The translations under genes were made by a program, and so were the position numbers. Shown one piece after another: positions 5,092 through 9,396 of a stretch of 42,692 nucleotides of DNA (the first letter of the stretch is position 1; each line of letters begins with the position of its first letter). The stretch is taken from NCBI GenBank assembly GCA_017560765.1, contig JAFZEI010000033.1:1-42692 (forward strand). Direction: 5' to 3'. Under the pieces are notes generated by a model. That model was given only the letters and a program-made list of their open reading frames with translations. It searched no databases and was not told where the DNA came from. This DNA is from Clostridia bacterium (GTDB taxonomy: Bacteria; Bacillota; Clostridia; UBA1212; UBA1255).

Positions 5092-6729
5092 GTGCAGAGA
5101 AAGCGTAAAGAAAGTAATGTAGACAGAACTGAGGATATCAAAAGAATAAAGCAGCAAGTGAAAAAAAGACCAAAGCGTAGAAAAGCCGATATGAGAAGGT
5201 TGTTAGTTGCTGCGGTTATTTTTGTGGCTCAGTTAGTATTTTTGATATGGGCTCTTTACAGAATGAATGCCTTTTTGTTGACTTCATATATTATTTTCCA
5301 ACTTATTGGTGCAGTTGCGGTTGTTCGCATCGTATTAAATCGCAATAATCCTTCATACAAGATTGCTTGGATTGCACTTATTTTATTAGTGCCTGTGTTG
5401 GGTCTTGTATTTTATTTAATGTGGGGGAGAGGCAGTTATCCTCAGAAAAGAAAAAAGGTTTTACCGGAAATTGCTCAAATGAAGGTGCCTTTATACAGAA
5501 ATTCAAAGGAAACAGAAAAGCAGTTAGAAAGGTTATTTCCGAATCAAGAAAGAATAATGAGATATCTTTGTAATGCGGGATTTCCGATTTATCAGGAGAC
5601 TGCTGTGACATATTATGATTTGGGAGATGCGTTTTTCCCGGCTATTATTGAGGATATAAAAAAGGCAAAAAAGTTTATTTTTATGGAATTTTATATTTTA
5701 TCAGAAGGCGATTTATGGCAGGAGATACTTGCTATACTTAAACAAAAAGTGGCTGAGGGGGTTGAAATACGTATTTTATATGATGATTTCGGTTGTATAA
5801 CGTGTTTACCAAAACAATTTGATAAAGAACTTAATAAGATTGGCATAAAAACTGCGGCCTTTAATGTAATCAAACCGGTTGTGAATAATTTTTATATGAA
5901 TTATAGAAATCATCAAAAAATTTGTGTTATTGATGGTAACATCGGATATACGGGAGGTGCCAATATAGCAGATGAGTATGTAAATACTGTTGAAGCTTTT
6001 GGACATTGGAAAGATACAGGTGTCAGGCTTGCAGGACGAGGCGTTTGGAGTCTTACTGTAAATTTCTTGCAAATGTGGAAGTATTGTGCTTATAATAAGA
6101 AGTGCGGTTTGCAAGATGAGGAGTATCGACATTATGCACCAGGTGAGTCTTTTTGTGCAAAGTATGCTGACACGAGGGGATTTGTGCAGCCTTTTTCCGA
6201 CGGTCCGATGAGAACACCGGGGGAGAATGAGGCAGAGGCTGTTTATATGCAAATGATAAATACAGCCAAGAATTATATTTATATTACAACACCGTACCTT
6301 GTACCGGATAATGAAATGCTTGTGGCATTGAGGTTGGCGGCTCAAAGCGGTGTGGATGTACGTTTGATAACACCAGGAGTTTCCGATAAGGGATATGTAC
6401 ATCTTGTTACGCAGTCGTATTATGGCACTTTGCTTTCTGCCGGTGTGAAGATTTATGAATATTTGCCCGGTTTTATTCATGCAAAGAGCTTTGTTTCAGA
6501 TGATGAAGCGGCTGTGGTAGGTACTATAAATATGGATTTTAGGTCATTTTATTTGCATTTTGAGAATGGTGTAAGGCTATGCGGAAATAAGGCTGTTTAT
6601 GATATTCGAGATGATTTTATAAATACATTGGAATATTGTGAGAAAATTGATTATAATAAGTGGCGAAATAGACCGTGGTATAAAAAAGCGGCTCAGGGCA
6701 TTTTAAGATTATTTGCTCCGCTGTTGTAA
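5092..6729 (+). CDS. cls: Cardiolipin synthase
   Basis: This membrane enzyme condenses phosphatidylglycerol molecules to cardiolipin. The 545-aa protein has a basic N-terminus (KKRPKRRK), two membrane helices at about residues 35-58 and 62-82 plus a third hydrophobic stretch at 90-111, then two phospholipase-D domains. Both HKD motifs are intact: His274, Lys276, Asp281 in NHQKICVIDG and His463, Lys465, Asp470 in FIHAKSFVSDD. The start is GTG at 5092, with AGAGGAGG (5076-5083) eight bases upstream. The next gene starts 19 bases after the stop, so they are probably cotranscribed. The length is somewhat above the usual 480-510 aa because of the N-terminal extension. Confidence 0.93.
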   Translation: MQRKRKESNVDRTEDIKRIKQQVKKRPKRRKADMRRLLVAAVIFVAQLVFLIWALYRMNAFLLTSYIIFQLIGAVAVVRIVLNRNNPSYKIAWIALILLVPVLGLVFYLMWGRGSYPQKRKKVLPEIAQMKVPLYRNSKETEKQLERLFPNQERIMRYLCNAGFPIYQETAVTYYDLGDAFFPAIIEDIKKAKKFIFMEFYILSEGDLWQEILAILKQKVAEGVEIRILYDDFGCITCLPKQFDKELNKIGIKTAAFNVIKPVVNNFYMNYRNHQKICVIDGNIGYTGGANIADEYVNTVEAFGHWKDTGVRLAGRGVWSLTVNFLQMWKYCAYNKKCGLQDEEYRHYAPGESFCAKYADTRGFVQPFSDGPMRTPGENEAEAVYMQMINTAKNYIYITTPYLVPDNEMLVALRLAAQSGVDVRLITPGVSDKGYVHLVTQSYYGTLLSAGVKIYEYLPGFIHAKSFVSDDEAAVVGTINMDFRSFYLHFENGVRLCGNKAVYDIRDDFINTLEYCEKIDYNKWRNRPWYKKAAQGILRLFAPLL

Positions 6730-6748: not shown

Positions 6749-8416
6749 ATGAGGACAGACATAATTGAATTAATACAATTAATTTCTAAAGAACACGCAA
6801 ATGAAGAAAGTGAAAGAAAAGCGCTAAGAGAGCTGTATGATGAATATCGTATACCTTTTTATTTCACTGCATTGTGTTTTTTTAAAGACGAAAAAAAGGC
6901 TGTTGCAGCGGCAACAGAGGCTTTTAGGAGAATTGAGGCTTCGGCTTATCGTTTTGACGAAGAATTAAATGCTGAATATTGGTTTTTTGATGTAATATAC
7001 ACTTTATGTGCCAATGCTGCAGATAAAGATAAAGGACACGCCACAACCGGCATTCCGTACATTCCTAAGGAGTTAATGCAAGCACCGGAGGTATACATAA
7101 AAATATATTCTGAACTGGAAGCAGCAGAAATAGCATCGTTAGCGGGTAAGAAAAGAACAGAAATCAATAAGATATTAAAAAATAAAGATATATGTGATGT
7201 TATAAAGGATATAGCTCCTCAGCATTGTCCTGATTTTTGGGAAGATGTTACAGAAAATAAAGCAACAGGTTTTGAGACATATTCTGAAAAGGAACGAAGC
7301 AAAACAGAAAAGGAGCAACGCGCTCAAAAACGCTCAGTAGACCTTAAGCGAATTGTTGCAATAGTTTTGGTTGTTGCATTTGCGTGTTCGGCGATAACTG
7401 TGGGGATATTACTTATTACAAAAAAATTTGGTAGCGATATAGATAAAAATGAAGCGCATGAAGATATAACATTACAATTTAATAATAGTATTGCTGTAGC
7501 AGAAATGGACGGGGCAATCTACTATTGCGCAGATAATGCTATGTATAAATATGACACAACAACAAAAAAGAACATAAAAATTTCAGATGATTTTCCTAAA
7601 GAGATATTAAGTGACGGTACATTTATTTATTATAGAAATAATGATGATGGCTATTTGTACAGAATTGACAGTGAAGGCAACAATAAAATATTGCTTTGCA
7701 ATGTTCCCGGGGTAGCTATGGCTTTGTATGATGGCAAGGTTTACTTTTCTGACGGAGACGGAATATACAGAGTGCCCTCGGGTGGCGCAGAGATTTCAGA
7801 AGCGGAGCTACTGCTTGATATCTCCACGGATGCTAATCTTTATTGTGTGGATACTGCAATTCATTCTTCGGGAAATGTTTTTTTTGCTTCGGGTATAGGT
7901 AAAGGAGTACATCATATTACAGAATTTAACGGGGCGCCATCTATAGAGGGAATTTTCAATGAAGAAGTTTATGCTTTAATAATAGATAAAGATAAGCTGT
8001 ATTTTGATTGCAAGGATGTTGGCGGCAAAATCTTATTATATTGTTTTAATATTGATGAATATCTTACAGCGGAGAAAAATGAGAGATTTTTCCCTAAAGT
8101 AGTTTCTGACTCTGAAGGAAAGAACATTGAACTCGTTACGGGAGCTTTTGATGTAAGTGATGGTAAGATATTTTTTGCAGGAGAGGAAAATGATGTTTCT
8201 GTATTATATATGTTGGATGAGGAGAAAAAGCTGAGTAAGGTGTGCGAAATTCCGCCGAGTGAAGCTAATGCGAGAAAAAAATTAGTAATAAGTGATGTTC
8301 ATGTTTTTGGAGAAAAAGTTTATTATTTTTGCTCTGATGGCAAAGCAGGAGGGGACAGAGCATTTTTTGAATACAACATGAATACAAGTGAAACGAATAA
8401 AATATTTGAAAGTTGA
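6749..8416 (+). CDS. Sigma-like / transmembrane / propeller-like fusion protein
   Basis: The start is ATG 6749, with AAAGGGG six bases upstream; a longer frame to 6713 lacks a site. The 555-aa protein has three parts. Residues about 27-90 resemble ECF sigma region 2 (LYDEYRIPFYFTALCFF, then AYRFDEELNAEYWFFDV), and residues about 112-146 resemble a degraded region 4 helix-turn-helix (LEAAEIASLAGKKRTEINK). A charged linker leads to one membrane helix at residues 202-224. The rest (about 245-555) is a beta-rich extracellular domain with repeated units such as IYYCADNAMYKYD, FIYYRNNDDGYLYRID and VYFSDGDGIYRVPSGG, like DUF5050-type propellers. The simplest idea is a membrane-tethered sigma or anti-sigma-like sensor of the cell envelope. 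The sigma-like part may have lost DNA binding. Neighbours are lipid and envelope genes. Confidence 0.75.
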   Translation: MRTDIIELIQLISKEHANEESERKALRELYDEYRIPFYFTALCFFKDEKKAVAAATEAFRRIEASAYRFDEELNAEYWFFDVIYTLCANAADKDKGHATTGIPYIPKELMQAPEVYIKIYSELEAAEIASLAGKKRTEINKILKNKDICDVIKDIAPQHCPDFWEDVTENKATGFETYSEKERSKTEKEQRAQKRSVDLKRIVAIVLVVAFACSAITVGILLITKKFGSDIDKNEAHEDITLQFNNSIAVAEMDGAIYYCADNAMYKYDTTTKKNIKISDDFPKEILSDGTFIYYRNNDDGYLYRIDSEGNNKILLCNVPGVAMALYDGKVYFSDGDGIYRVPSGGAEISEAELLLDISTDANLYCVDTAIHSSGNVFFASGIGKGVHHITEFNGAPSIEGIFNEEVYALIIDKDKLYFDCKDVGGKILLYCFNIDEYLTAEKNERFFPKVVSDSEGKNIELVTGAFDVSDGKIFFAGEENDVSVLYMLDEEKKLSKVCEIPPSEANARKKLVISDVHVFGEKVYYFCSDGKAGGDRAFFEYNMNTSETNKIFES

Positions 8417-8427
8417 GGGTATTTGAA

Positions 8428-9396
8428 GTGAAAGGGTTATTTATTATTAATCCATCTTCGGGCAAACAAATAAATCAAGGAAAAGCAATACAAACAATTA
8501 CAGAGTTGTTGAGGGATGGAGTAATTGAAGAAGCTACTGTGTTTTACACAAGGGCTAAGGATGATGCAAAAAACAGAACAATTAAGGCAAGTAAAGAGGA
8601 TTATGATTTTGTTGTGGCAGTGGGAGGAGACGGTACAGTCAATGAGGTTGTAGCTGGACTTTATACAACAGGAAGCAAAATGCCAATGGCAATAATGCCA
8701 TCCGGCACAACAAACGATTTTGCCACGTCTGTAGGAATTGTTCCGACAGTTGTCGGTTTGTATTATCTTATTAAAGATTTTAATGTGGTGCCTACGGATA
8801 TAGGTTGCTTCAATGAAAAGGATTATTTTTTAAATGTTGCTGCAGGTGGAATATTATCTGAAGTAGCGCATAATGTAAGCATCGAATCAAAAACAATGTT
8901 GGGCAAAACGGCATATATTACCAGCGGAATGAAAACTATAGCTGAAAAGGGGTTTAAGACAACGCGATTACTTTTTGAAATTGACGGAGTTAAAGAAGAA
9001 ATTGATGTGTACTTCTTTATTTTAGCAAATTCAAAAAGCGTGGGAGGATTTTCAAAAATATGCGCAGATGCAAAAATCAATGACGGGTATATGGATTTGT
9101 GCATTATTAAATCTCTTGACATATTAAATGCGGTGCCGATTTTTACATCAATTCTTGATGGCTCTCACAAGAATAACAAAAACGTAGAATATCGTCAGGT
9201 TAGAGATGTTAAAATTTCTGCTATTGATGAAAATACCGTTTTCCACCTTGACTGCGATGGAGAATATGCAGGGGAACTTCCGATGCACGTAGAAGTTTTA
9301 AAAGAGGGAGTAAATTTACTTTTACCTACCGAAAGTCGCAAAACGAAAAACATTGTTGCACAGCAAGATGAAACAAAAATACAGATAAGGGATTAA
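8428..9396 (+). CDS. Diacylglycerol/lipid kinase family protein
   Basis: The 322-aa protein belongs to the DagK/YegS family, which phosphorylates diacylglycerol or related lipids using ATP. It shows the N-terminal FIINPSSGK, the nucleotide-binding loop VGGDGTVNEVVAGL, MPSGTTNDFA, and a C-terminal beta-sandwich ending near HVEVLKEGVNLLL. The start GTG 8428 is preferred because TGAGGG (8414-8419) lies 8 bases upstream and the resulting N-terminus (VKGLFIINPSSG) fits the family; a TTG at 8413 is the alternative. It follows the sigma-like fusion gene by 11 bases and, with cls, makes a phospholipid-related group. It could be DgkB, which recycles diacylglycerol from lipoteichoic acid synthesis, but I cannot settle the substrate. 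Confidence 0.9.
   Translation: MKGLFIINPSSGKQINQGKAIQTITELLRDGVIEEATVFYTRAKDDAKNRTIKASKEDYDFVVAVGGDGTVNEVVAGLYTTGSKMPMAIMPSGTTNDFATSVGIVPTVVGLYYLIKDFNVVPTDIGCFNEKDYFLNVAAGGILSEVAHNVSIESKTMLGKTAYITSGMKTIAEKGFKTTRLLFEIDGVKEEIDVYFFILANSKSVGGFSKICADAKINDGYMDLCIIKSLDILNAVPIFTSILDGSHKNNKNVEYRQVRDVKISAIDENTVFHLDCDGEYAGELPMHVEVLKEGVNLLLPTESRKTKNIVAQQDETKIQIRD

Follow-up and report, generated by a model that had tools for sequence, protein, structure and literature searches.

A single-pass membrane protein joining a sigma-like domain, an anti-sigma-like segment and a DUF5050 propeller in one clostridial order

A sigma-like domain at the head of a membrane protein raises the question of whether the protein is a sigma factor held at the membrane or a protein that uses the sigma fold for another purpose. 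The question is posed by a gene of a Clostridia bacterium in a window of 42,692 nucleotides (the whole stretch of DNA analysed, contig JAFZEI010000033.1). An earlier note, made from the sequence alone, described the product as a sigma-like N-terminus, one membrane helix and a propeller outside the cell. Two readings were offered there: a sigma that stays tethered until proteolysis frees it, or a scaffold that descends from a sigma, has lost DNA binding and has gained a sensor role. The reading frame encodes 555 residues from the ATG at 6749 on the + strand, with the ribosome site AAAGGGG just 5' of it and the stop codon TGA at 8414-8416. A TTG at 6713 was ruled out as the start, since the ATG at 6749 has the better ribosome site and alignment fit. 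The features of the locus are the following.

5092 to 6729, + strand: cardiolipin synthase gene (cls), upstream neighbour (TIGR04265, 1.5e-107).
6749 to 8416, + strand: fusion gene with sigma-like, anti-sigma-like, transmembrane and DUF5050 parts, 555 residues plus stop.
6749 to 7027, + strand: region 2-like domain of an ECF sigma, residues 1-93, with an acidic region 2.3-2.4.
7028 to 7180, + strand: degenerate sigma region 4-like domain, residues 94-144, its helix-turn-helix (HTH) turn about 4 residues shorter in the window's genus.
7181 to 7333, + strand: juxtamembrane segment, derived from an anti-sigma, residues 145-195, with an invariant Pro161 within a PD motif.
7331 to 7429, + strand: single transmembrane helix, residues 195-227 by hydropathy (helix 188-226 in the model).
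7481 to 8413, + strand: extracellular DUF5050 beta-propeller, residues 245-555, from profile match and fold.
8413 to 9396, + strand: YegS/DagK lipid kinase gene (TIGR00147, 4.5e-57), whose TTG at 8413 overlaps the stop of the fusion.

The family profile, AlphaFold2, hydropathy and the DUF5050 match agree on the proposed layout, and the profile matches of the two neighbours bear out their earlier naming as cls and a lipid kinase gene. The C-terminal 310 residues, previously described as repeated beta units, match DUF5050 (PF16472) with an E-value of 9.7e-14 and 51.7 bits, against a gathering cut-off of 27. In the whole-protein model (mean pLDDT 85) they form a beta-propeller, the best solved relative of which is 3s25 (9.8e-10). 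Each of the 28 relatives has one hydrophobic segment; the segment of the window protein encloses the helix first placed at 202-224. In none of the 28 relatives is the N-terminal side of the helix poorer in lysine and arginine than the opposite side, which indicates an N-in/C-out topology. The fusion protein is most likely a single-pass membrane receptor. The lipid kinase gene has an alternative start, GTG at 8428, and its 4-base overlap with the fusion depends on the start chosen.

The window protein alone has no sigma match in Pfam, and its NCBIfam matches are marginal (SigW, E 0.0064; TIGR02937, 0.012). We therefore built a profile of 28 orthologues. Searched against the PDB, this profile finds SigK with an E-value of 3.5e-13 and, with one of 1.7e-11, SigW, where the match falls into two stretches corresponding to regions 2 and 4. 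Taken singly, 20 of the 28 members match Sigma70_r2. In the AlphaFold2 model of residues 1-164 (pLDDT 92, pTM 0.87), the helices of region 2 and region 4 are present. The best fold matches are the complexes SigW:RsiW, CnrH:CnrY, AlgU:MucA, SigK and RpoE:NepR, followed by RNAP-bound ECFs and PhyR. The top fold E-value is modest (5.1e-4), and so the claim of homology is carried by the sequence profiles. By profile, the case for a sigma origin of the family is decisive; from the single window sequence it is marginal.

Within the window's order, 30 of 31 genomes have the full architecture (16/16 and 14/15 in two samples). The only genome of the order without it, G016, is 84% complete. A homologue survey had been suggested earlier, and it finds the same fusion in none of the genomes sampled outside the order. 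In the class sample, the best non-order matches score 79 bits, cover residues 3-160 only and are open frames of about 200 residues. In the phylum sample of 398 genomes, with E-values up to 1e-25, only the window's own copy was found. A contig scan with the single window protein yielded just one close relative, and the sole relative with a name is the Oscillospiraceae MAG SIG426. The recurrence in 30 of 31 genomes dismisses the reading of the gene as a chance or one-off product. In a tree of the sigma parts, all 28 fusions lie on one side of one branch with 100/100 support. The sequences thus support a single origin of the fusion, before the order radiated.

For each of the standalone ECFs nearest to the fusions (L060-L067, L069, L070 and L114-L117), the next gene is of anti-sigma type, and its product combines a short helix at the N-terminus with a PD motif and a membrane helix. 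The scanned partners of L060, L116 and L117 carry RsgI_M and PepSY domains, and that of L071 carries DUF4179 instead. When a profile of the juxtamembrane segment of the fusions is compared with the other ORFs of all loci, 627 in number, such anti-sigma partners take the first ten ranks. The matches lie nearly all at residues ~2-32 of the partners (best, 1.1e-6); most are individually weak, and the argument is their ranking among the 627 ORFs. Pro161 of the window protein, in the PD motif, is invariant across the family. Since the first ~30 residues of the anti-sigma partners match the juxtamembrane segment, the protein is best read as an end-to-end fusion of an ECF sigma gene and its membrane anti-sigma. 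Outside the order, a split form is found in G205 (L074:799-1882), where an ECF gene is accompanied by a separate anti-sigma-like membrane protein that starts a DUF5050 domain (1.3e-8). Both genes look short or broken, the ECF being seemingly truncated in region 4, and the split form is therefore taken as supporting evidence only.

To see what has become of the sigma surfaces, we set three groups side by side: 20 standalone ECFs, 5 fusions of the window's genus and 23 fusions from beyond that genus. The columns that differ are presumably core-binding residues (equivalents of sigma70 D403 and Q406) and promoter-binding residues, an assignment we make by analogy with sigma70 and RpoE. Region 2.3-2.4, taken together with the basic stretch that follows, has a mean net charge of +5.2 (3 to 9) in the standalone ECFs, against -2.6 (-5 to -1) for the 23 fusions and -3.6 for those of the window's genus; the 28 fusions are monophyletic, so this change is one phylogenetic event and rank tests on it are not independent trials. 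The Gln of region 2.2, present in 17 of 20 standalone ECFs (His in the others), is gone in 28 of 28 fusions, being replaced by V, A or I in 23/23 and by T, A or S in the window's genus. At one position of the region 4 recognition helix, 20/20 ECFs have a Lys or Arg, whereas Glu stands there in 23/23 fusions and in 4 of the 5 of the window's genus; for the latter, the alignment of region 4 requires a 4-residue gap. Of the features of a functional ECF, regions 2 and 4 are present by profile and fold, and the core-binding Gln, the basic region 2.3-2.4 and the basic recognition helix of region 4.2 are absent. The position three before the Gln, an Asp equivalent to sigma70 D403, is acidic in 23/23 fusions and A, N, L, T or S in the window's genus; four positions after it, a Glu is kept in 28/28. 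Some contact with the core may therefore survive in the fusions, as judged by these two residues.

The sigma part is strongly constrained. Its dN/dS is 0.05-0.11 in non-saturated pairs outside the window's genus, with dS above 1 in many of the pairs used, and is below that of the propeller in most pairs; within the window's genus, dN/dS is largely saturated and uninformative. Several other new residues are fixed in 23/23 fusions outside that genus, which argues against simple decay. The surface changes are, on the alignment and the tree, one ancestral set that has been maintained since. The sigma domain is more degenerate in the window's genus, which has a shortened interdomain linker and HTH turn and a long sigma branch (1.78). 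A member in G002 (L003:1504-3102) has lost almost the whole stretch between the sigma regions, while its propeller is ~68% identical to that of the window. This deletion suggests that the sigma-like domain is undergoing reduction in the window's genus.

The window's genome also contains a tandem array of ECF sigmas with long C-terminal extensions (L144, G000:C15:1500-12500; also L039, L041 and L043). Two of its proteins have 540 and 548 residues, and a further frame exceeds 1000. Their HTH motifs look normal, and no membrane helix was seen in them by eye.

The presence of sigma and sensor in one chain, which the earlier note took as unusual, is true of this protein and is not in itself new. 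ECF-anti-sigma fusions are known as IutY (ECF243), SCO4117 (ECF52), ECF48 and ECF53 (PMC8999054, PMC5826349). Like the present fusion, they have an N-terminal ECF, an anti-sigma segment, a membrane helix and an extracellular part in one chain. However, they are active or presumed active sigma factors, whereas the sigma surfaces here are rewritten. In addition, ECF52 has a zinc-finger domain and a carbohydrate-binding module, and the ectodomain of the present fusion is a DUF5050 propeller; the zinc-binding ZAS motif of ECF52, HxxxCxxC, occurs in 0 of 28 fusions, and a zinc-dependent anti-sigma domain was rejected on that ground. The second comparison is with PhyR, a sigma mimic that serves the general stress response of alphaproteobacteria; the promoter and core sites of its sigma fold are degenerate, and it acts by protein binding (PMC8103513). 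The fusion resembles PhyR in its degenerate sigma sites and has a weak fold match to PhyR chains. However, PhyR is a soluble protein with a receiver domain and NepR as its binding partner, whereas the fusion is a membrane protein with an outside propeller; no C-terminal receiver domain was found in the window protein, where DUF5050 is the only domain beyond the helix. The closest relatives of both cytoplasmic segments are the clostridial pairs of an ECF gene and an RsgI_M/PepSY or DUF4179 gene, but these are two genes, keep a basic region 2.4 and the HTH and have different ectodomains. DUF5050 propeller proteins (EUBREC_1955, PDB 3s25) share the family and fold of the ectodomain, but 3s25 is a propeller only, of 295 residues, without a sigma-like domain. 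Among the papers of an open-access collection that mention DUF5050, none concerns sigma factors by title and abstract. Within this non-exhaustive collection, a membrane sigma mimic that is nearly universal in its order, has a propeller as sensor and is nearly fixed beside a lipid kinase appears to be a new combination of two known kinds.

A YegS/DagK-type lipid kinase gene lies directly 3' of the fusion in 26 of the 27 loci with DNA there (25/26 initially, plus G018 once a longer downstream stretch was taken), at a distance of a few to ~180 bases. L018 (G012:C103) is the sole fusion locus with downstream DNA in which the lipid kinase gene is missing from this position. The cls gene is less regular; it precedes the fusion in family f5 and in the majority of f1 members, and was not found adjoining it in the examined loci of f4 and f6. 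Thus, of the neighbours surveyed at the suggestion of the earlier note, dagK is nearly constant and cls belongs to two families. Genes for UvrC and a phosphoesterase nearby are also partly syntenic, and the linkage to the kinase and cls is therefore suggestive but no proof of function. The link to envelope lipid stress proposed earlier fits these neighbours, which are its sole basis.

We consider it probable, from the sequences, that the protein is a one-pass receptor whose cytoplasmic part is a promoter-blind sigma mimic, similar in kind to PhyR, and not a releasable sigma. The rewriting of the DNA- and core-facing surfaces, together with strong purifying selection, favours a scaffold without DNA binding over a sigma liberated by proteolysis, and of the two original proposals it is the scaffold that we retain. 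A functional ECF sigma tethered to the membrane and released by regulated intramembrane proteolysis, as for IutY and as proposed for ECF52, would have the same architecture, and both sigma domains and an anti-sigma-like segment are indeed present; the site-2 protease homologue in the genome is near universal and neutral as evidence. However, no member has a basic -10-binding region (it ranges from acidic to neutral), the region 2.2 Gln and the basic residue of the recognition helix are replaced, and the window's genus has a shortened region 4. We regard a tethered sigma as unlikely. At the other extreme, the sigma part could be a decaying pseudo-domain without a remaining role, with only the propeller of importance. 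The window's genus has features that would fit such decay (the shortened region 4 and linker and the long sigma branch), but outside it the constraint on the sigma part is no weaker than that on the other parts of the protein, and several residues are newly fixed there in 23/23, which makes this very unlikely.

If the domain is a scaffold, its partner has to be considered. A specific form of the preferred receptor reading is an adaptor that directly controls DagK, and Cls where present, via the sigma-derived domain and without the transcription machinery. The position of dagK and, in f1 and f5, of cls is consistent with this, as is the membrane-lipid theme that the products share. However, operon linkage alone is no sign of contact, other genes of the locus are partly syntenic too, and cls does not adjoin the fusion in the examined f4 and f6 loci. 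Such an adaptor is possible, and we put it forward as a tentative form only. Alternatively, the domain might titrate the RsgI-type anti-sigma of the nearest ECF paralogue in the manner of PhyR, in line with a closed sigma fold like that of anti-sigma-bound forms and PhyR and with descent from RsgI-linked ECFs. The distribution largely rejects this idea: RsgI_M is found in 7 of 29 genomes of the order and is absent from the window's genome, and RsgI_N (PF12791) is found in only 2 of 29, whereas the fusion is near universal. We give such titration hardly any weight.

For the receptor with a promoter-blind sigma mimic, the following course can be proposed. On the evidence of the sequences, an ECF sigma gene was joined to the start of the adjacent anti-sigma gene, comprising its N-terminal segment and membrane helix, with a DUF5050 domain as the ectodomain. 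The propeller would bind a ligand in the envelope, and binding could alter the closed packing of sigma2 and sigma4 across the single helix. The sigma-like domain would then relay the signal via another protein and not by transcription initiation. Candidate partners are, in order, the operon-mate lipid kinase DagK, the core RNA polymerase, for which the domain would be a decoy, and an anti-sigma factor, after the model of PhyR and NepR. The result would probably be an adjustment of envelope lipid metabolism. In its boldest form, which we think improbable as a whole, the protein would be the first transmembrane sigma mimic, an order-wide receptor made of a sigma and its own anti-sigma that exerts non-transcriptional control of DagK at the membrane.

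Fused ECF-anti-sigma proteins are generally regarded as sigmas that can be released, and to our knowledge sigma mimicry has one well-known case, PhyR. The split relatives and the standalone ECFs supply the evolutionary steps towards the fusion, and the almost constant position of dagK beside it opens a possible role in envelope lipid control to direct testing. If the proposal is true, a transcription factor fold would have been recruited in this order as a part for signalling at the membrane.
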